DNA from: Candidatus Magasanikiibacteriota bacterium
Lineage (GTDB): Bacteria > Patescibacteriota > Patescibacteriia > Magasanikbacterales > 2-02-FULL-50-9b
NCBI GenBank assembly: GCA_943349075.1
Contig: CALQYY010000004.1
Coordinates: forward strand, 1 to 34,075
Direction of reading: 5' to 3'
Length of the DNA: 34,075 nucleotides
This document shows positions 3,613 through 24,774 of the stretch, one piece after another. Numbering within the stretch: position 1 is the first letter of the stretch; each line of letters begins with the position of its first letter. Made by a program: the position numbers and the translations under genes. The notes beneath the pieces are model-generated. The model saw only the letters and a program-made list of their open reading frames with translations, was not told the origin of the DNA and did no database searches.

Positions 3613-5367
3613 TTATGTCACAATTCGAAAATCTTGCAATTTAAATTGCAACTCTTTTGTTCCATTCCACTCATTGCAACTAAAATTGTAGACGCCATTG
3701 ATTTTTTTGCCGGGCGCAAGATCAGGCAAATGTTCACCAAGCCCAAATCCCATCATTTTTTTAATAGAAGGGGAGTTGTGTTTGATCATGAGGCGAAGGT
3801 GTTTATCCTCGGTCCCGACATGCTGCGAGCCAACGATGCTCAGGTCTTCGGTAAGAAAGATTGGCTCAGGATTGCCGATGCCAAACGGCTCAAATTTTTG
3901 TAAGTGTTCAAGAACTTCCCAATTAAGATCGTCGAGTGGTACGCGCGCATCAATCAAAACGGTTGGAATTAGCTCTTGGATTTTTTCAACCTGCGCGTCC
4001 GCGATTGCGTGCATCGCTTTGGCAAATGGCTCGATCGCAGCAACGTCGGCAAGTGAAAAACCGCACGCCTGTGGATGGCCGCCGAACTTGGTGAAGAGGT
4101 CTGGGCGGGTTTGCATCGCAGCAATCATGTTCCATTCGGTGATCGAGCGACCAGATCCAACGATGCGATCGTCGTTAATTCCGATGACAAATGTTGGTTT
4201 GTAATATTTTTCTTTGAGGCGCGACGCGATGAGCCCAACAAGTCCTGCGGGCCAGCCTTCGCCGCTCACCACGAGCGATGCGTGTTTGTCGAGCTCGTCG
4301 CGTTTGATTTTTGCGTGAGCCTCTTTAACAATTGTTTCGGTGAGTTTTTGGCGGTCAGTATTATGTTGGTAGAGCTGGTCGGCGAGGCGTTGTCCTTCTT
4401 CGGGTGTTTCTGCGAGGAGCATCTCGAATGCGTATTTTCCGTGGTCCATGCGGCCAGCGGCGTTGATGCGTGGCGCGATTTTAAAACCAATAATTTGTGG
4501 CGTGATTGGCACAGAAGATCCCGTGTCTGAGGCGATGATTTTGTCGCGCGCGAGGAGTGCGCGCAGGCCATGACGTTTTGTTTTGCCGAGAACTTTGCAA
4601 CCGAAATAGACGAGTGTGCGGGTTTCGCCAACGAGAGGAACCATGTCGGCGACGCTGGAGATTGCAACGAGGTCGAGTTGCCATTTTTGGAAGTGATCGG
4701 GGTTTATGTGTGGCGGGAGCAATGCGCGCGTTGGCGGGTCTTGCATGAGCCCCTGCATGAGTTTAAATGCGACGCCGCCGCCCGACAATGTGTGATCAGG
4801 ATATGTTTCGCCCTCAACTTTTGGATGCAAAATAGCGTATGCCTCAGGAAGTGTTGCGGGGATTGCGTGGTGATCGGTTACAATTACATCGATGCCAAGC
4901 GTGTTTGCGTGTGTGATTTCGGGCGCATTTGAAATTCCGCAATCACAAGTAATGATAACTTTTGCGCCGCGTGCTGCAAGTGTGTCGATTGTAGTGATTT
5001 TGACGCCATAACCGTCGAATTCGCGGTGGGGAATGAATCCATCGACGTTCGCGCCGAGTGTGCGAAGTGTGTGGGTTAAAATTGCGGATGCGGAAATTCC
5101 GTCGGCGTCGTAGTCGCCGTGAACGATAATGAGTTCTTTGTTTAAAATTGCTGCGTGGAGACGGTCGACCGTGCGTTGCATGTGGCGAAACAAAAACGGA
5201 CTATGAATGTCACGCTCATAGCTTGGTTCCAAAAAAGCACGCGCCTCTTGCTCGGTGCGTAGGCCGCGGTTCCAGAGTAATTGTCCGATAATTGGATGAA
5301 TACCCGGCATTGCCGTTGCATCAAAAACATTCGTTTCAGCCAGAAGCGTCCAAAGGGTGTTTTTCAT
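3613..5367 (-). CDS. recJ: Single-stranded-DNA-specific exonuclease RecJ
   Basis: DHH family motifs (IVHGDYDADGISASAIL, VIVTDHH), GGHPQACGFSL DHHA1 motif. Start at MKNTLWTLL (5367). Confidence 0.95.
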   Translation of the reverse strand: MKNTLWTLLAETNVFDATAMPGIHPIIGQLLWNRGLRTEQEARAFLEPSYERDIHSPFLFRHMQRTVDRLHAAILNKELIIVHGDYDADGISASAILTHTLRTLGANVDGFIPHREFDGYGVKITTIDTLAARGAKVIITCDCGISNAPEITHANTLGIDVIVTDHHAIPATLPEAYAILHPKVEGETYPDHTLSGGGVAFKLMQGLMQDPPTRALLPPHINPDHFQKWQLDLVAISSVADMVPLVGETRTLVYFGCKVLGKTKRHGLRALLARDKIIASDTGSSVPITPQIIGFKIAPRINAAGRMDHGKYAFEMLLAETPEEGQRLADQLYQHNTDRQKLTETIVKEAHAKIKRDELDKHASLVVSGEGWPAGLVGLIASRLKEKYYKPTFVIGINDDRIVGSGRSITEWNMIAAMQTRPDLFTKFGGHPQACGFSLADVAAIEPFAKAMHAIADAQVEKIQELIPTVLIDARVPLDDLNWEVLEHLQKFEPFGIGNPEPIFLTEDLSIVGSQHVGTEDKHLRLMIKHNSPSIKKMMGFGLGEHLPDLAPGKKINGVYNFSCNEWNGTKELQFKLQDFRIVT

Positions 5368-5386
5368 ATTGTGTGCCGGCTTGGGA

Positions 5387-5476
5387 CTAGTAGCCAGCGG
5401 TAAACGCAAGAATCATTGAAACCAGAATGATGCTCGCAAAAATTGCAGAAAAAATGCGCCGTGTTTTTTGTTTCAT
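5387..5476 (-). CDS. Short transmembrane microprotein (29 aa), not in the ORF track
   Basis: MKQKTRRIFSAIFASIILVSMILAFTAGY*: basic N-terminus plus one hydrophobic helix; TTGTTT-17-TACAAT promoter 11 nt upstream of ATG; stop 19 nt before the recJ start. Confidence 0.65.
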   Translation of the reverse strand: MKQKTRRIFSAIFASIILVSMILAFTAGY

Positions 5477-5487
5477 ATGTCTGAAGC

Positions 5488-5516
5488 ATTGTAGCGCACT
5501 TGTTCACTGCAAACAA
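5488..5516 (-). promoter_or_regulatory. Promoter of the microprotein-recJ unit
   Basis: Minus strand TTGTTT (5516-5511), 17 nt, TACAAT (5493-5488). Confidence 0.7.
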
Positions 5517-5612
5517 TATTGAATTTTATCCCACGTTTGTCCACTATTGACAGCGTTATTTTTATATGGAACCCCGTATGTGTGGGCACGGTGCCTGCAG
5601 AGGAAATGTGTG

Positions 5613-5897
5613 ATGAAAAAAATATGTGCGCTAGGCGCTTTTCTTTGTGTGTCGTCGTGCGTTGCTGAACCCCCAGCTGCGTTTGAGGTGACGAGAGCTT
5701 CCATGACGGAAGATCCGTATCCATACGATGATTTTGTCTATGGGGATAGTTATCTCGACGAAGACAAAGACGGTGAGTCGACCGAATTTGATTGCAACGA
5801 CGAGAATCCGTTTGTGTGGACTGGTGCGAGCGAGCTCTGCAACAAAATTGACGACAACTGCAACGGCAAAACTGATGAAGCGGAGCAGTGTTTGTGA
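5613..5897 (+). CDS. Putative lipoprotein with MopE-like (PF11617-type) metal-binding motif
   Basis: MKKICALGAFLCVSSCVAEPP lipoprotein-like signal; DEDKDGESTEFDCNDENPFVWTGASELCNKIDDNCNGKTDE. Confidence 0.85.
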   Translation: MKKICALGAFLCVSSCVAEPPAAFEVTRASMTEDPYPYDDFVYGDSYLDEDKDGESTEFDCNDENPFVWTGASELCNKIDDNCNGKTDEAEQCL

Positions 5898-5901
5898 TTC
5901 G

Positions 5902-5936
5902 TGGCTGGTGAGCAACCGCTCGCCAGCCATATTTTT
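5902..5936 (+). terminator. Intrinsic terminator
   Basis: tggctggtgagc (5902-5913) / gctcgccagcca (5918-5929), loop aacc, followed by tATTTTTA. Confidence 0.85.
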
Positions 5937-7746
5937 AGCTTGCGTCTGGTTTTAGAATTGCTAAAAATGTTTCTGGTGGAATATCAACAGAACCGCGGCC
6001 CATCGCCTTCATTTTTTCTTTACCCTTTTTCTGCTTGTTCAAAAGCTTGTTCTTTCGAGTAATATCACCACCGTACAATCCAGCAGTAACGTCTTTGCGC
6101 ATAGCGCTAATGCGTTCTGATGCAATAATCTTTCCACCAATAACAGCTTGGAGCTTGATTTCAAACATTTGGCGAGGGAGGTGTTCTTTGAGTTTTTCGC
6201 AAACACGCTTACCAAGGCGATAGGCATCTTCTTTTGGAGCAAGCATTGCGAGCGCCTCGATCGATTCTTCCGCAACTAAAATCTCAACACAAACGATATC
6301 AGCAGGTTCTTCATCGAGCCAATCATATGAAAGCGATGCGTAACCACTTGAAATGCTCTTGAGGCGATCGTAAAAGTCAACCAAAATTGAAGAAAGAGGG
6401 AGTTCGAAGTGAAGAAGAACGCGCGCATGCGCTTCGCCGCCAGCTAAGTACTCAGCGTTTTTGTAGCGTCCGCGTTTTTCATGAACGAGTTGGATGATAT
6501 TTCCTTGTGTTGCAGACGGAGTTACAACATCAACCTTAACCCACGGCTCGAGTGTTTCTTCAACAAACGTTGGATCAGGATATTCCATCGGTGAGTGAAC
6601 AGTGATAACATCGCCATTTGTTTTGTGGACCGTCAAAGCAACACTCGGAGTTGTCACTACAACCGGGATATTAAATTCTCGAGACAAGCGTTCCTGCACA
6701 ATTTCTAAGTGCAACAAACCAAGAAGACCACAGCGAAAACCCATGCCGAGCGCAGGTGATTGTTCAGTTTCGTAAACGAGTGACGAGTCATTGAGTTTCA
6801 AACGCTCCATTGCATCGCGAAGTTTTGAGAACTGAGAACCGTCTTTTGGGTAAATACCCGCGTACACCATTGGTACAACTGGCTTATAACCAGGGAGGCC
6901 CTCGATAGATCCGTCGGCAGCACAGGTGATGGTGTCACCGACACGTACACCGCTAATCTCCTTAAGACCGGTCACAACATATCCAATCTCACCCGTTTTG
7001 AGCGACGGAGTTGAAATTAATTTTGGGCTGTAGTACCCAACTTCGAGTGCTTCTCCCAGCGACTGTGTTGCAATGAATTTAATTTTTACTCCTGGAGTAA
7101 GTTGACCATCAACGATTTTAACTTTTGCAACAACACCGCGATAGTCGTCGTAGATTGAGTCAAAAATAAGTGCACGAACTGGTGCGTTTGTGTCGCCAAC
7201 AGGTGGGGGAACTCGCTCAACAATTGCATCGAGAATTGCAGGAACGCCAACGCCTGTTTTTCCGCTCGCCAAAATAATATCCTCCTTGCGACATCCGATC
7301 ACTGCAACAATTTCCGCAGTCGTTTTTTCGATGTCTGCGTTTGGAAGATCGATTTTATTTAAAACAGGGATGATTGTAAGGTCTTGTTCGATCGCTAAGT
7401 ACAAGTTAGCGAGCGTTTGTGCTTGCATGCCTTGTGATGCGTCGACAACCAAAATCGCACCTTCAACCGCAGCGAGGGAGCGAGAAACTTCGTATGAAAA
7501 ATCCACGTGTCCCGGGGTGTCAATCAAGTTGAGTTCGTACTCGACGCCTGCAACCACATGTTTCATGCGGGCTGGGGCGAGTTTGATGGTGATTCCGCGT
7601 TCGCGCTCGATGTCCATGGAGTCGAGGAGCTGTGCCTGCATGTCGCGTTTTTGAACGGTTCCGGTAACTTCAAGAAGTCGGTCCGCAAGGGTCGATTTTC
7701 CGTGGTCAATATGGGCGATGATGCAGAAATTGCGAATGTGGTTCAT
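5935..7746 (-). CDS. lepA: Elongation factor 4 (LepA)
   Basis: GTPase motifs AHIDHGKSTLADRLLE, DTPGHVDF, NKIDLP; C-terminal GGDITRKNKLLNKQKKGKEKMKAMG. Confidence 0.98.
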   Translation of the reverse strand: MNHIRNFCIIAHIDHGKSTLADRLLEVTGTVQKRDMQAQLLDSMDIERERGITIKLAPARMKHVVAGVEYELNLIDTPGHVDFSYEVSRSLAAVEGAILVVDASQGMQAQTLANLYLAIEQDLTIIPVLNKIDLPNADIEKTTAEIVAVIGCRKEDIILASGKTGVGVPAILDAIVERVPPPVGDTNAPVRALIFDSIYDDYRGVVAKVKIVDGQLTPGVKIKFIATQSLGEALEVGYYSPKLISTPSLKTGEIGYVVTGLKEISGVRVGDTITCAADGSIEGLPGYKPVVPMVYAGIYPKDGSQFSKLRDAMERLKLNDSSLVYETEQSPALGMGFRCGLLGLLHLEIVQERLSREFNIPVVVTTPSVALTVHKTNGDVITVHSPMEYPDPTFVEETLEPWVKVDVVTPSATQGNIIQLVHEKRGRYKNAEYLAGGEAHARVLLHFELPLSSILVDFYDRLKSISSGYASLSYDWLDEEPADIVCVEILVAEESIEALAMLAPKEDAYRLGKRVCEKLKEHLPRQMFEIKLQAVIGGKIIASERISAMRKDVTAGLYGGDITRKNKLLNKQKKGKEKMKAMGRGSVDIPPETFLAILKPDAS

Positions 7747-17855: not shown

Positions 17856-19067
17856 ATGAAAAAGGGAAAACGCGAAAAACTATCGGCAATTGATGAATTA
17901 TCAGTCGGACTCAGCCATGTTAAGGCTCGCTGCAAGTATTTTGGCGAGTGTGGCGGCTGTTTGATGCAAAACATTGATTACAAAGACCAGGTGGAGCTCA
18001 AGCGCCAGTTGGTTAATCGCGCGTTTGAAAAGCAAGGGATCGAGGCGCGGCTCGAAAAGGGTGCAATCACACTCTCGCCGCAGCAGTGGTATTATCGCAA
18101 TCGCATGGATTATCCGGTCGGCGAGAACGCGGAAATCGGCCTTAAACCATTTGGAAAGTGGCGCGATGTGCTTGATTTGAAAGAGTGTTTTGTTTTGTCG
18201 AAGGAAACGCCGGAAATTTTGCAGCTCGTGCGCGACTGGATGAAGTCGTACGATTTGCCGGGTTGGAACAATGTTCGCTACCAGGGCTATGTTCGCTATG
18301 TGGTGATTCGCGAGGGCAAACGCACGGGCGAGCGCATGGTGATGGTGGTGACGGCTGAGGATAAAATGAATGCGGTGCCGCCAGATGCGTGGACCGAGCT
18401 CGCGCGCCGTCTCAAATCGTCATGCACAACTTTGTATCACGGGGTTAATCCGCTCATAACCGATATTTCAATTCCAGAACAATTGAATTTATTGTTCGGT
18501 CCAGAATTTTTGACCGAAAAAATTAATGGATACACCTATAAAATTTTTCCATCGTCATTTTTTCAGACGAACTCGGAGGGTGCGGAGCTTTTGCAGCAAC
18601 GCGTTCGCGCACATGTAAAAGGAGCGCGTGTGCTTGATTTGTATTGCGGTCTTGGTTTTTTCACGATCGACTTTGCGGCGCAGGGCAAAAAGACATTTGG
18701 TGTTGAACTCGATGCGGCAGCAATTGAACTCGCGCGTGAAAATGCAAAACTCAATAATGTTGAGGCAGGTTTTGCAGCAGCGTCGATGGAAGAGTGGATT
18801 CGCGGAGAAGGACCGGCGATTATTAAAGATTTCGCGGCCGACTCGATTGTTGTCGACCCACCGCGCATGGGTTTGCATCCGCGCGTTGTTGATTGGCTCA
18901 AGGACCAGAAAGTTCCTGAGCTTATTTATGTTTCGTGTAATTACGAGCAGCTCGCGCGCGAAATGCTCGAACTTCAGAAGGTTTATAAATTGGTTGCGCT
19001 CGAAGCGGTTGATATGTTTCCGCATACGCCGCATATTGAAACTATTGCGCGGTTTGAACTTCGCTAG
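17856..19067 (+). CDS. 23S rRNA (uracil-5-)-methyltransferase, RlmD/TrmA family
   Basis: CKYFGECGGCLMQ Fe-S cysteine motif, VLDLYCGLGFFTIDFA SAM motif, VDPPRMGL, VSCNYEQLARE. Confidence 0.92.
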   Translation: MKKGKREKLSAIDELSVGLSHVKARCKYFGECGGCLMQNIDYKDQVELKRQLVNRAFEKQGIEARLEKGAITLSPQQWYYRNRMDYPVGENAEIGLKPFGKWRDVLDLKECFVLSKETPEILQLVRDWMKSYDLPGWNNVRYQGYVRYVVIREGKRTGERMVMVVTAEDKMNAVPPDAWTELARRLKSSCTTLYHGVNPLITDISIPEQLNLLFGPEFLTEKINGYTYKIFPSSFFQTNSEGAELLQQRVRAHVKGARVLDLYCGLGFFTIDFAAQGKKTFGVELDAAAIELARENAKLNNVEAGFAAASMEEWIRGEGPAIIKDFAADSIVVDPPRMGLHPRVVDWLKDQKVPELIYVSCNYEQLAREMLELQKVYKLVALEAVDMFPHTPHIETIARFELR

Positions 19068-19068
19068 G

Positions 19069-19097
19069 TTGACTTTTTAGTGATTTTAATGTAGGAT
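19069..19097 (+). promoter_or_regulatory. Promoter
   Basis: TTGACT (19069-19074), 17 nt, TAGGAT (19092-19097), 1 nt after the methyltransferase stop codon. Confidence 0.7.
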
Positions 19098-19136
19098 TTT
19101 TCTATTCCCGAGATTTTTTCGGAGAAATGAGGGTGC

Positions 19137-19478
19137 ATGAAAGATCTCCTGGTTTGCGTTTTGATTGCCTTTTTGGCAGCCTTTGGGTTCGGCTGTGAGA
19201 ACAAGCCTTGCGGCGAGTGGTTTATGAAAGGGGATATGGCGCAAATGAACGCTGATCTCCAGATAGACCAGTTCGCCGATTTTCGTACGGTCACTGGTTT
19301 TGGACCGACTGATCTGTGCGCCGAGGCACGCGCAGAAATTGCGCGCGATCATTGCGGGTCAAGAGTGCGGCTCCGGTGGTACTACGATGGTGGAGCACAG
19401 AATAAACTCTGCAACTTCAAAGTCTACGTAGGAACATCCATCACGGCTTACGCCTACCCCACAACCAAGGCGTTCTGA
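19137..19478 (+). CDS. Small putative lipoprotein, Cys-containing, unknown function
   Basis: MKDLLVCVLIAFLAAFGFGCENKPC signal with lipobox-like C; GAGGG Shine-Dalgarno. Confidence 0.8.
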   Translation: MKDLLVCVLIAFLAAFGFGCENKPCGEWFMKGDMAQMNADLQIDQFADFRTVTGFGPTDLCAEARAEIARDHCGSRVRLRWYYDGGAQNKLCNFKVYVGTSITAYAYPTTKAF

Positions 19479-19497
19479 GCTTTCGGGTTCTGGACCT

Positions 19498-19534
19498 CGC
19501 GTCACTCACGAATACTTTCGGGGTGGCGCGTTTT
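19498..19534 (+). terminator. Probable intrinsic terminator
   Basis: cgcgtcactc (19498-19507) pairs with gggtggcgcg (19521-19530) using G-U wobbles; followed by TTTT. Confidence 0.65.
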
Positions 19535-19553
19535 GTTATAAAATGGGTGACAT

Positions 19554-19751
19554 ATGAATCACGAAACCCAAAATGCAGGATGGCAGCCAATCCCACTTCA
19601 TATTGATGTGCCGGAGCCGCCAAAAAATCAACCAGACGAAGCACAAAAAAAGCCGGTAGAAAATAAAAAAGACTCTTTTGTTATTAATGGCGAGGATCCT
19701 CGTGAGTATAATGCGTTTAGTGATCCGTTTAAGAGTGGTGACGAAATGTAA
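19554..19751 (+). CDS. Small Pro/Lys/Asp-rich hypothetical protein
   Basis: 65-codon ORF with possible -10 (TATAAA/TAAAAT) just upstream; no domain. Confidence 0.55.
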   Translation: MNHETQNAGWQPIPLHIDVPEPPKNQPDEAQKKPVENKKDSFVINGEDPREYNAFSDPFKSGDEM

Positions 19752-19807
19752 AATCTGTTAAATGGGTGTATACTGTTATCGTATTTCTGTAGTTATCGTT
19801 TGTGTTT

Positions 19808-22800
19808 ATGTGGCAAAAAAATAGAATAATAATCACATTAATTGCGGCTTTTTTTGCCACAACTGTTGGTATACCATTTGATCAAGTTCAGGCTGCATCG
19901 TATTCAAGTACGGTTTTGAGCGACAGCCCTCTTTATTATTGGCAGATGAATGATGCTTCGGGAGCAACGACTGCAGCAGCAAGTGCTGGAGGTGTCGCGC
20001 TGAATTTGACGGGTGCAACAGCAGGAAGCACGGCATATGTTGGAGGTTCATCAATCTCTTTTAATGGCACATCAAATTCTGCAGCAACAGCTTCGAGCTT
20101 AAACCTGACTGCGTACAATAAGATTGTCGTTGAAGCGCTGCTTTATATTCCTTCATATACAACGACAGGACGTATAGCGTGGGAACTTGGTCCTAATGTG
20201 AGTTCGTACTTTGATACATTGTATTTTGCGGTTGATGGTGGTGTTGATGGCACAACTGCTGCTGCAAACGTTGCGGTGCAGGGTAATGTTGGTTACAGTC
20301 TTGCCACATACCCTCGATTAACTGCAGCTAATTGGCACCATGTTGTAACTGTTTACGACAAGAGTTTAAGCACAGACGAAGTTTCTTTGTATGTTGATGG
20401 CTCACTTGTTAGCGTAACGTCTCGTGTTTTGAATAGCAATAATACAAATACGTTTGGAAATCGTGTTCTGTATTTGATGAGTCGAGCGGGAACAAGTCTA
20501 TATACGGCAGGTAAGATGCAGCATCTTGCGATATACTCAGATCTTTCAGCTCCAACAATTGCAACGCACGCTGCAACAGCGCTTGCAAACGTGGTGACAT
20601 CTGGAACGCTTTCAGAGGCGTCGCACACAGCATCAACAGCAACGTTGTCGTGGACAAATGCGTCTGGTGGAACCGCACCAATTACAGCTCAGCTGCAGCG
20701 CAGTGCTCAAAATGCAAATTCGTGGAGCAATGTGTCGGGCGGTACAACGAGTCCTACAACTGACACAGGTCTTTCGATGAGTACTGCGTATGACTACCGA
20801 GTGGTTTATACAGATTCTGCATCAAACCAAGTTATTTCAAATACTGTCACCGTAACAACTGATTCTTCGCCAGCGACTACAATTACGCTGACAGGGCCGT
20901 CAACTAGTACTGTTGGAAATGCATCGTCTAACTTTACTGTCGGATCAGATGGTTTAGTTAGTGGAACAGTTGTTGTAACTCCGAGCGACAGTGGGGCTGG
21001 AGGAACTTTTACACCGAGTTCGGCCTCAATTTCAGGTATTGGAACGGCAACGTTTACTTATTCAGGAGCGACCACAGGTACAAAAAGTATCTCAGTAACT
21101 AATAATGGAGGCTTAACCAATCCGTCTGCTACTACAATCAGAATCGGTAATTCAGGTATTTTGCTGGGCGATAGTACTGTTGCATCATATTTGGCGGGCA
21201 CACAAATTGCTGATTTTGTATATTCTGCATCTGAAACAAGTGCGGGTTATTCTGTAACATCGATTGCTGTTCCAGGTAATACAATCGCGCAGCAAAAAAC
21301 AGCATACTTAGCCACAAGTAACCGTGCAACATTTGATTATACAATTGTTCAAGTTGGTCTCAATGATTTAAATCCTGCCGAAGCTGCGTCGGTCGCGATT
21401 GCTCGTTTACAGGATTTGATTGATACGATTAATTCGAATAAAAAGACGGGTTCGCTTGTGATAGTTTCAACGATGACACCAGCGAAACAACGATTAATCG
21501 ATGTTTATGGAGCAACAAATGGTGCGATTTCGTATCAAAAATGGCTCGACATGAACGCGGCAATAAAAGGGGAGGGAGCAACACCAATTACAGGTGCAAG
21601 CTTAAGAATTTCCAATCATACAACTTACCTGAATGATGGCGCTGGAAATCTTGATGCTGCTTATGATTTGGGTGATCACATTCACGAAAACAATGCTGCG
21701 CGACAAATTATTGCGCACCTGTGGCGTGACGGACTTGCTCAGCTTGGAATTTTATTTGCAACAACATCAAGTGCTCCAACAGTTGCTTCGGCTGTTGCGG
21801 GAAATAGTTCCGCAGTGATTACACTCACTGAACCTCAGTTTACAGGAGGGGCAGCGGTGACTGGATACACAATAGTTGCGAGTCCAAGTGCTGGAACCGA
21901 TGCTCAAGCCGGCACAACAAATCTTTCCCACACAATCTCGGGTTTAACAGCGGGTGTCAGCTACACATTTACTGCTGTGGCAACAAACAGTGCAGGGTCA
22001 AGCGACCCTTCTGCTGCGTCAGGCGCAGTTGTTCCAACGGATACGACAGCTCCATCGACCACAGATAACGCTTCTTCGTCGTGGAGTGCAAGCAATGTAA
22101 CAATAACACTGACCTGTTCTGATACTTATGGTAGCGGATGCGCAACTACGTATTACACAACCGACGGGTCAACACCAACAACAGGGTCATCGTCAGGTAG
22201 CTCAATTCTATTAACAGAAAGTGGAACGTATACGGTGAAATATTTTTCAGTTGATGGAGAGGGGAATACTGAATCTGTAAATACCATAGGTTTCCTTGTG
22301 AAAATCGACAAAATAAGTCCAGCATCGGTCGGTGCTCCAAGTTTTGGAACAGTAACAAAAAATTCAATTGAAATTACTCAGCCAACAACGGTAACAGAAA
22401 CAGGGTCTGGGTTACATCAGTATCAGGTAAAAAAGAACGGGGTTACAGAACTCGGATTTAATGCAACAACAACAGCAGTGTCGGATACAAGTTTGACTGA
22501 AAATACACAGTATTCGTATGCTGCGCAGTTTAAGGATTATGCAACAAACGTTAGTTCGTATGGCGATACTGCGTCAAAGTATACAAAAGCACCAGATCCA
22601 ACAGGTTTGTCGAGTGCACTATCTACGAATGGGGTTACGATTACGGTAAATGGTTTTACGAACGATACAGTTAGCTTGTCAGGTTATTATTTTAGTCGTA
22701 CCGGAAAGAGTTCTGGATGGATTCAGACAAATAGTTGGAGCGACCAAGAAGTTGTTTGTGAGACTTCGTACACCTACTCAGTTAAGTATCGAAATGCTGA

Positions 22801-23515
22801 AGGTGTCGAAACTGATCCGGCCGTGATAAATGTGACGTCAGCTAACTGTAATAGAATTTCTGGTGGATCATCGTCGGTGATTATCCGACCTTCAGATACT
22901 ATTCGTCCAATAGCGGGTTACAGCGTTTTGATCAATAATGGTTTAGAAAAGACCAGTAATCGTGTCATTCCGATTAAATTTTTAGCGGGGTATGACATCA
23001 AGTACGTTGCGATTTCGATGGTAAATAATTTTGAATCAATAAGTTTGCAAAATTATTATCCACAAATGAGAATGGATTTGTGCTCAAAAGCGGCGGGAGC
23101 AATTGTTGAATCTGTTTGTCCTGATGGAGATTATGTGGTTCATGTAAAACTTTATACCAGTGATGGAATTGGTTCGCAGGTAATTTCTCAGCGCATTAAA
23201 CTTGAGTCGCCACCTCTTCCGAAAGTAATTAATCCTCTCGTGGAATACAGACCAATTCCAAAAGTCTCACCAGTGTTTTCTCGAAATTTACAACTAGGCG
23301 TGGTCTCTTCAGATGTTACTCGATTGCAAAAACTACTTGCAACAATGCCGGATGTTTATCCGGAAGGGGGTGTAACGGGCTATTTCGGATCGCTAACAAA
23401 AAAAGCAATACAGCGTTTTCAGCTTAAATATAAGATTGTCACGTCGAAAAATGATCCTGGTTTTGGAATTGTAGGTTCAAAAACAAGATTAGCACTCAAA
23501 AACATATTTAAGTAA
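19808..23515 (+). CDS. Large secreted multidomain surface protein: LamG-like, FN3-like, SGNH hydrolase-like, chitobiase-C-like, C-terminal peptidoglycan-binding domain
   Basis: Signal peptide MWQKNRIIITLIAAFFATTVG; LamG-like region; SGNH blocks GDST, VGLND, DHIHEN; TTDGSTPTTGSS...YFSVDGEGNTES; LQLGVVSSDVTRLQKLL...GYFGSLTKKAIQRFQ. Confidence 0.9.
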   Translation: MWQKNRIIITLIAAFFATTVGIPFDQVQAASYSSTVLSDSPLYYWQMNDASGATTAAASAGGVALNLTGATAGSTAYVGGSSISFNGTSNSAATASSLNLTAYNKIVVEALLYIPSYTTTGRIAWELGPNVSSYFDTLYFAVDGGVDGTTAAANVAVQGNVGYSLATYPRLTAANWHHVVTVYDKSLSTDEVSLYVDGSLVSVTSRVLNSNNTNTFGNRVLYLMSRAGTSLYTAGKMQHLAIYSDLSAPTIATHAATALANVVTSGTLSEASHTASTATLSWTNASGGTAPITAQLQRSAQNANSWSNVSGGTTSPTTDTGLSMSTAYDYRVVYTDSASNQVISNTVTVTTDSSPATTITLTGPSTSTVGNASSNFTVGSDGLVSGTVVVTPSDSGAGGTFTPSSASISGIGTATFTYSGATTGTKSISVTNNGGLTNPSATTIRIGNSGILLGDSTVASYLAGTQIADFVYSASETSAGYSVTSIAVPGNTIAQQKTAYLATSNRATFDYTIVQVGLNDLNPAEAASVAIARLQDLIDTINSNKKTGSLVIVSTMTPAKQRLIDVYGATNGAISYQKWLDMNAAIKGEGATPITGASLRISNHTTYLNDGAGNLDAAYDLGDHIHENNAARQIIAHLWRDGLAQLGILFATTSSAPTVASAVAGNSSAVITLTEPQFTGGAAVTGYTIVASPSAGTDAQAGTTNLSHTISGLTAGVSYTFTAVATNSAGSSDPSAASGAVVPTDTTAPSTTDNASSSWSASNVTITLTCSDTYGSGCATTYYTTDGSTPTTGSSSGSSILLTESGTYTVKYFSVDGEGNTESVNTIGFLVKIDKISPASVGAPSFGTVTKNSIEITQPTTVTETGSGLHQYQVKKNGVTELGFNATTTAVSDTSLTENTQYSYAAQFKDYATNVSSYGDTASKYTKAPDPTGLSSALSTNGVTITVNGFTNDTVSLSGYYFSRTGKSSGWIQTNSWSDQEVVCETSYTYSVKYRNAEGVETDPAVINVTSANCNRISGGSSSVIIRPSDTIRPIAGYSVLINNGLEKTSNRVIPIKFLAGYDIKYVAISMVNNFESISLQNYYPQMRMDLCSKAAGAIVESVCPDGDYVVHVKLYTSDGIGSQVISQRIKLESPPLPKVINPLVEYRPIPKVSPVFSRNLQLGVVSSDVTRLQKLLATMPDVYPEGGVTGYFGSLTKKAIQRFQLKYKIVTSKNDPGFGIVGSKTRLALKNIFK

Positions 23516-23517
23516 TT

Positions 23518-24774
23518 GTGATTGGATTTCGTATTGAATTACCTGATCGAAATAAACTTCCGGAATCACCCGGAGTTTATTTGTTTTTCGATGCTGCAGG
23601 CACACTTATGTATGTTGGTAAGGCAACATCGCTCAAGTCGCGTGTTTCATCATATTTTCGTGCACAAAAAGATGGGCCGACGCGTGCGATCGAGGAAGTG
23701 GTGAGCGATATCGCGCACATTGAATATATTGAAACGCCGACTGTGCTTGAGGCGCTGCTCAAAGAAGCAGATTTGATTCGTCATAAAAAACCGCCGTACA
23801 ATGTTTTGCTCAAGGACGACAAAAGTTTTTTGTGGATTTGTTTTACGGCCGACGAATATCCACGCGTGGTTTTGGTACGCGGCAAGGATTTGGAAATTGC
23901 GGGCGCTGAAAAAATGTATCCTAAACGCTGGGGTCCGTTTGTTGGCGCGAAGATGACACGCAGTGCGCTCGAAATTATGCGCCGGATTTTTTCGTGGAGC
24001 GATTGCACGCCGGGGCAGAAGCGCCCTTGTTTTAATGCGCAGATCGGGCGTTGTCCAGGTGTGTGCACGCGCGCGATTTCACCGACGGCATATAAGAAAA
24101 TCTTACGTCGCATGGCGCTTTTTTTGGATGGCAAGCGCTCGACGCTTGAGGCACAGCTATTGAAGGAAATGGCTGCTGCAGCGCGCGCGGAAGATTTTGA
24201 GCAGGCAGCGCTTTTACGTAATCAATTATTTGCGCTGCAACATATTCAGGATATCGCGCTTATTGGTCGCGAGGACGACGAGCCGTCGGCAAATTTGTCG
24301 GTCAATCCGTTCAAGCGCATCGAGGGATACGATATTTCGCATTTGTCCGGAACGGGCATGGTTGCATCGATGGTTGTGTTTGAACATGGTGAGCCCGCGA
24401 AAAAAGAATATCGCAAATTTGAAATTAAAGGTTTTACAAAATCAAATGACACGGGGGCGCTGCGCGAAACGTTGTCGCGACGGCTCACGCACGCCGAATG
24501 GCCACTGCCTGAGATTTTTTTTATTGACGGTGGCGAGGGGCAGGTGAATGCAGTGATGAAAATTTTGCGTGAGCTAAAAATCGATCGGCCGGTTGTTGGA
24601 ATTGCAAAAGGTGCGCTGCGAAAAAACATTCGCTACGTTTTTGATCGCCGCAATACTGCGCTCGATCGCGCGATTCGTTTGTATGGACATATTTTTGTGA
24701 AGGTTCGCAACGAGGCACATCGATTTGCGATTACGTATCAGCGGAAGAAACGGCAAATGCGGGATTTTACATAG
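23518..24774 (+). CDS. uvrC: Excinuclease ABC subunit C (shortened, no C-terminal HhH)
   Basis: GTG start; GIY-YIG-type PGVYLFFDAAGTLMYVGKATSLKSRVSSYF, UVR region, EGYDISHLSGTGMVASMVVF, FFIDGGEGQVNA. Confidence 0.96.
   Translation: MIGFRIELPDRNKLPESPGVYLFFDAAGTLMYVGKATSLKSRVSSYFRAQKDGPTRAIEEVVSDIAHIEYIETPTVLEALLKEADLIRHKKPPYNVLLKDDKSFLWICFTADEYPRVVLVRGKDLEIAGAEKMYPKRWGPFVGAKMTRSALEIMRRIFSWSDCTPGQKRPCFNAQIGRCPGVCTRAISPTAYKKILRRMALFLDGKRSTLEAQLLKEMAAAARAEDFEQAALLRNQLFALQHIQDIALIGREDDEPSANLSVNPFKRIEGYDISHLSGTGMVASMVVFEHGEPAKKEYRKFEIKGFTKSNDTGALRETLSRRLTHAEWPLPEIFFIDGGEGQVNAVMKILRELKIDRPVVGIAKGALRKNIRYVFDRRNTALDRAIRLYGHIFVKVRNEAHRFAITYQRKKRQMRDFT

Follow-up and report, generated by a model that had tools for sequence, protein, structure and literature searches.

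A phage-type SGNH esterase-like module in a predicted wall-bound surface protein of a probable Patescibacteria bacterium

Introduction

Phage tail fibres with SGNH domains are the closest described systems for the predicted esterase considered here. In Klebsiella prophages, the SGNH tail fibres (RBPs 164_08 and 174_38) are esterases active on p-nitrophenyl acetate, and gp63.1 of E. coli phage G7C cleaves an O-acetyl group off LPS (PMC13123978). Our comparison with the G7C and Klebsiella proteins is drawn from the literature and not from sequence.

How ultrasmall bacteria choose a host and hold on to it is largely open, with pili and unnamed surface proteins as the main candidates. In Paceibacterales, extracellular proteins have been described that carry Ig-like domains together with peptidoglycan-binding ones (PMC10936435). 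We found no paper on a phage-type esterase of the present kind in these bacteria in the literature searched; the nearest report describes Patescibacteriota phages that carry genes for ConA-like lectins (PMC12911398).

Here we analyse a multi-domain protein encoded in a 34,075-nucleotide stretch of DNA (the window, by which we mean the whole stretch) from a 53-contig draft genome. The most informative fact, which was absent from a preliminary description of this DNA, is that the nearest relatives of the protein's SGNH and Ig modules are virion- or tail-type proteins of viral contigs and phages.

Results

The ORF lies at 19802..23515 on the + strand, as do all the features given below, and has a GTG at 19802 and a likelier start, an ATG, at 19808. 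From a signal peptide-like start to a PG_binding_1 tail it is uninterrupted over 1237 aa, in agreement with the surface protein at 19808-23515, with the same ATG, of the preliminary description. The order of its parts is signal peptide, Laminin_G_3, FN3-like, Ig-like, SGNH, fn3, Fn3_assoc, a weak FN3-like stretch and PG_binding_1. The signal peptide-like N-terminus (MWQKNRIIITLIAAFFATTVGIPFDQVQA/A, 19808..19897) was read from the sequence by eye. It is followed by a Laminin_G_3 or ConA-like domain (residues 89-247, 20066..20542; PF13385, E 8.2e-11), a match that appears only when the N-terminal piece is scanned alone. Behind the SGNH domain come an fn3 domain (residues 663-739, 21788..22018; E 2.6e-7), an Fn3_assoc domain (residues 781-828, 22142..22285; PF13287, E 1.2e-6) and, weakly, an FN3-like stretch (residues 835-937, 22304..22612), the last seen through an NCBIfam match to exoglucanase CbhB that is partial and, at E 6.6e-8, well under the cut-off. 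Thus LamG, fn3 and PG_binding_1, all named in the preliminary description, exceed their Pfam cut-offs, whereas the part it had called chitobiase-C-like has to be renamed, because Pfam scores Fn3_assoc, also above cut-off, and not CHB_HEX_C at residues 781-828.

The FN3-like and Ig-like repeats that had been placed ahead of the SGNH domain are a more mixed case. Pfam does not recover them at residues 260-450 (fn3 E 0.71), and a structure model of the FN3-Ig-SGNH stretch is confident for SGNH only, the FN3 and Ig parts being poorly modelled. The FN3-like segment (residues ~271-356, 20612..20869) is weak, and falls inside a phmmer alignment of residues 271-449 to the viral contig L076 (3e-30; best tblastn segment, 53% identity). 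This contig also holds the best relative of the Ig-like module (residues 357-449, 20870..21148), which we judge by homology to be real and which matches further viral ORFs as well.

At the other end of the protein, the C-terminal PG_binding_1 domain (residues 1170-1229, 23309..23488) scores E 7.9e-7, or 29.6 bits against a curated cut-off of 23. The tail around it (residues 1143-1236) is 49% identical to that of a 1421-aa FN3 and PG_binding_1 protein from the same order (L066, genome G016). Similar tails were found in many relatives, and the window genome encodes two proteins with this domain. By sequence, this C-terminus appears typical of the lineage and is shared with its own order. The open frames behind the PG_binding_1-type matches in relatives span 1079-2945 codons, which makes the earlier label of 'giant' generous.

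The SGNH hydrolase domain occupies residues 450-655 (21149..21766). When the segment is isolated, Lipase_GDSL_2 matches it at E 8e-7, slightly under the family cut-off, so that by HMM the earlier assignment falls just short; it is carried by an alignment of 22 relatives, by a profile alignment to E. coli TesA and by a fold model. In the 22-relative alignment, the invariant columns are G9, S11, T12, G72, N74, D178 and H181, which correspond to G456, S458, T459, G519, N521, D625 and H628 of the ORF. In the alignment to TesA, GDST falls on GDSL, GLND on GGND and DHIH on DGIH. The predicted nucleophile, S458 in block I (21173..21175), thereby meets the GDSL serine; block III is G519-L520-N521 (21356..21364), with N521 as the oxyanion Asn, and block V, D625-H-I-H628 (21674..21685), would supply the catalytic Asp and His. 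The block II Gly is present as G492, in a block that is not invariant across the subfamily. By sequence, the catalytic set (S458, G492, G519, N521, D625 and H628) thus appears complete. An AlphaFold model of the domain (mean pLDDT 96) predicts an SGNH fold for residues 450-655, and a PDB search with this model gave 103 matches at E<=0.001 with SGNH enzymes at the top, among them acyl-CoA thioesterase I, acetylxylan esterase Axe2 and sialate O-acetylesterase (TM ~0.6-0.7). The three blocks listed in the preliminary description (GDST, GLND and DHIH) therefore hold up in alignment, and its own test, the placing of the Ser and the Asp/His in one catalytic site, is answered through the TesA alignment and the predicted fold.

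The kinship of this domain points to viruses. As a lone query, by one method, it found 5 loci in viral contigs against 1 in 84,980 species genomes; with the alignment as the query, 21 viral loci were recovered at 33-54% identity. The subfamily is also carried by two Vibrio phages, at 40.5% identity to the window domain, and the viral relatives come from contigs of diverse composition as well as from these phages. In many of the relatives' ORFs, often tail-type proteins, SGNH is the C-terminal domain, and genes for baseplate hub and wedge, tape measure, tail, terminase, portal and endolysin lie nearby in several viral contigs. One 873-aa protein (E 5.9e-21, TM 0.89, rmsd 1.5), equal in length to the Vibrio phage ORF, is by far the best match in a viral structure library; the remaining matches listed have only 12-20% identity. 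Taken together, the matches show that the SGNH subfamily of the window protein is mainly viral. In the tree, the window sequence falls among viral sequences without a supported sister, and the outgroup does not form one side of a branch. A plasmid origin was rejected, the search in plasmids having given no match.

The Ig module has its own set of viral contexts. It stands ahead of an alpha/beta-hydrolase-like region in L076 and ahead of other SGNH domains in the viral L080, L083 and L084/L085; in L080 a Laminin_G_3 domain lies in front, giving the order LamG-Ig-SGNH. LamG/ConA-Ig-hydrolase is thus an arrangement that recurs in viral proteins, and the N-terminal half of the window protein follows it. 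The Ig module had no match in named phages, LamG gave no kin in viral contigs at the sensitivity used, and the C-terminal part gave an empty result in a single-protein scan; such scans rely on short exact peptides, and their negatives are weak evidence. Within the order, LamG found one match (31%, genome G053).

Among bacteria related to the window genome, no strong match to the SGNH subfamily was found beyond that genome when 380 genomes of its phylum, 381 of its class and 86 of its order were sampled; these samples were drawn, not exhaustive, and overlap. This is in line with the earlier remark that the combination looks unusual. The two weak matches examined in these samples are other SGNH proteins: L090 is membrane-bound, and L070:169-2076 (+, genome G065) encodes 635 aa with apparent TrbC-like membrane and transglycosylase-like parts joined to SGNH, of which SGNH was scored and the others were read by eye. 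For the Ig module, one other sampled phylum genome, G338, had a strong match. This is a 629-aa chromosomal protein (L089:9964-11853, -) with the order ConA-like-Ig-FN3-SGNH, which resembles viral L084 and whose SGNH subfamily differs from that of the window; no phage structural genes are evident in the translations of ~8-10 kb on either side. Finding a second chromosomal protein of this overall build in the 380-genome sample suggests that such modules may be reused repeatedly.

The SGNH subfamily of the window protein also has a cellular member, in Bacteroidales, where L004 encodes a Ceramidase_alk-SGNH fusion; among 396 genomes of its phylum, L004 alone matched. By eye, the fusion adjoins glycoside hydrolase-like genes. 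A protein with two apparent SGNH-like domains is encoded near the fusion, the pair of genes lying at L004:156-2357 and 4504-6627 (+).

The ORF is surrounded by uvrB, uvrA, an RNA (uracil-5-)-methyltransferase gene, uvrC, rsmH and a ClpB-like gene, and neither phage genes nor sugar-use genes were found among the neighbours examined in the window. Given the uvrB-uvrA-methyltransferase-uvrC neighbourhood, we reject a prophage gene. The ORF lies between the methyltransferase gene (17856..19067) and uvrC (23518..24774), both assigned by Pfam; the latter is 77-80% identical to its counterparts in same-genus genomes, and the two genes are near each other in regions from four relatives. The interval between them (window 19068-23517; L061-L065) ranges from ~0.8 kb to ~10 kb among close relatives: it is short in G002 and holds ~1020-aa proteins in G004 and G005, while in G001 it contains several secreted-type genes, as it does in G003 so far as the contig can be compared. 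Our best reading is that this interval is a cargo slot for surface-protein genes, turning over between related species. In G001, a same-genus genome like G003, the slot also holds an exosortase (PF09721, E 3e-11; L062:3445-4356, -). The gene order of the L062 slot, the exosortase with several secreted-type genes, is similar in L064 (G003), PF09721 having been scored in L062. In the window, the slot is shared by a 113-aa ORF that begins like a lipoprotein (MKDLLVCVLIAFLAAFGFGC; 19137-19478, +) and lies upstream of the 1237-aa ORF. The GC3 of the latter is 0.27-0.38 throughout, as against 0.40-0.52 in housekeeping genes, with no step at the SGNH edges; since it is low over the entire gene, we reject a recent in-frame insertion leaving a compositional footprint.

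Discussion

The best explanation, to which we give roughly even chances, is a surface protein that a small-genome bacterium, from the small genomes of its kin probably one of the Patescibacteria, exports and binds to its peptidoglycan, and in which a phage RBP-type module has been joined to a lineage-typical C-terminus. By the former we mean the Ig-like spacer and the SGNH esterase, behind a LamG lectin-like domain, and by the latter the FN3-like spacers with PG_binding_1. The signal peptide would direct export of the 1237-aa protein, PG_binding_1 would hold its C-terminus on the wall and the FN3-like domains would form a stalk, while LamG, FN3 and Ig together would display and orient the SGNH domain. 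There, S458-D625-H628 with the oxyanion residues G492 and N521 would hydrolyse an ester. By analogy with SGNH tail fibres, this would most likely be an O-acetyl ester carried by a neighbouring bacterium's surface polysaccharide, which the enzyme would thereby de-O-acetylate. We thus infer, as the preliminary description did, a carbohydrate esterase that may act on host glycans, and the sequence suggests that a bacterium may modify the sugar coats of other cells much as viruses do. The direction of transfer, probably from phage to bacterium, is read from the distribution of the subfamily because the tree leaves the window's sister unresolved. Points against the explanation are that the Ig and SGNH modules match different viral proteins and not a single one, that the subfamily has a cellular relative in Bacteroidales, that the search for viral LamG kin came up empty at its sensitivity, that FN3 and Ig were poorly modelled and that the window showed no phage gene.

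Other readings give the same domains a different use. The enzyme could serve scavenging, by stripping polysaccharides (xylan-like or exopolysaccharide), whether free or in biofilms, of their acetyl or acyl groups and so yielding acetate or opening the glycan for uptake, with LamG and the FN3-like domains as carbohydrate-binding parts. Axe2 and sialate O-acetylesterase among the nearest solved folds, and the glycoside hydrolase-like genes beside the Bacteroidales relative, would fit such a role; we nevertheless consider it unlikely, as virion proteins (33-54%) are far closer to the domain in sequence than known CAZyme esterases are (~15% by fold), and the neighbours examined include no genes for sugar use. 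It is distinctly unlikely that the protein is an adhesin only, an attachment factor in which the SGNH fold would bind glycan but do no useful catalysis. The residues Ser, Asn, Asp and His are all in place and do not vary over 22 divergent relatives, which implies selection for catalysis, although the LamG, FN3 and Ig architecture would suit an adhesin, and extracellular peptidoglycan-binding and Ig-like proteins are highly expressed in host-attached Paceibacterales (PMC10936435).

A further reading turns the enzyme inwards: a captured phage enzyme would de-esterify the bacterium's own surface glycan and remove a phage receptor, as a defence. Such phage exclusion would agree with a phage-type SGNH domain on a protein bound to the cell's own wall, and the methyltransferase gene-uvrC slot varies among relatives as is expected of loci under such pressure. 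We hold it quite improbable, however, since the viral relatives are from diverse-composition contigs and Vibrio phages, none shown to infect the lineage, so that a foreign glycan is likely, and the multi-domain stalk suggests outward presentation. Finally, the draft state of the genome and the phage-like character of the SGNH module could mean an assembly chimera or a remnant prophage gene in place of a functional surface protein. This is very improbable indeed: the module is enclosed on both sides in a single open frame that runs from the signal peptide through a PG_binding_1 tail of its own lineage, the chromosomal neighbours are conserved, those examined include no phage genes, and the low GC3 is unbroken at the SGNH edges.

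If we return to the proposed wall-bound protein with its phage-type module, it is tempting to speculate that its bearer, probably an episymbiotic bacterium, recognises its bacterial host's surface polysaccharide through the captured receptor-binding enzyme module and strips it of O-acetyl groups, in a phage-like adsorption to prey. This step is possible, if doubtful. In this scenario, host range would depend on a module that can be swapped within a variable locus for surface proteins. A predicted phage-type glycan esterase on a putatively wall-bound protein is a concrete and testable candidate for host attachment, and since the bacteria infected by the related phages hint at possible target glycans, it also gives a clue to which host is involved.

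Compared with known systems, the protein resembles E. coli TesA (acyl-CoA thioesterase I / lysophospholipase L1) in its SGNH fold and in the GDS, GxND and DxxH blocks that align, but TesA is a stand-alone enzyme at ~16% identity and TM 0.6-0.7. The Bacteroidales fusion is closer (45-46% identity), belongs to the same subfamily and is likewise cellular with a signal-like N-terminus, yet its partner is a ceramidase N-terminus and it has no LamG, Ig or PG_binding_1. With phage SGNH tail fibres, our protein shares an esterase domain set in a modular protein, LamG/ConA and Ig parts occurring in other proteins of this type, and its subfamily includes AUR95877.1 of Vibrio phage 1.214.O (40.5% identity). 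In contrast to tail fibres, its SGNH domain is placed between a signal peptide-like N-terminus and a predicted peptidoglycan-binding tail, and the protein is encoded among bacterial housekeeping genes and is no part of a virion; it would work like a tail fibre, but because it is without a phage-gene neighbourhood and not built for a virion, we do not class it as one. The own-order protein L066 (1421 aa) differs from it in having neither SGNH nor LamG by Pfam, and what both L066 and the Paceibacterales proteins share with the window protein is the pairing of FN3/Ig-like domains with a C-terminal PG_binding_1.
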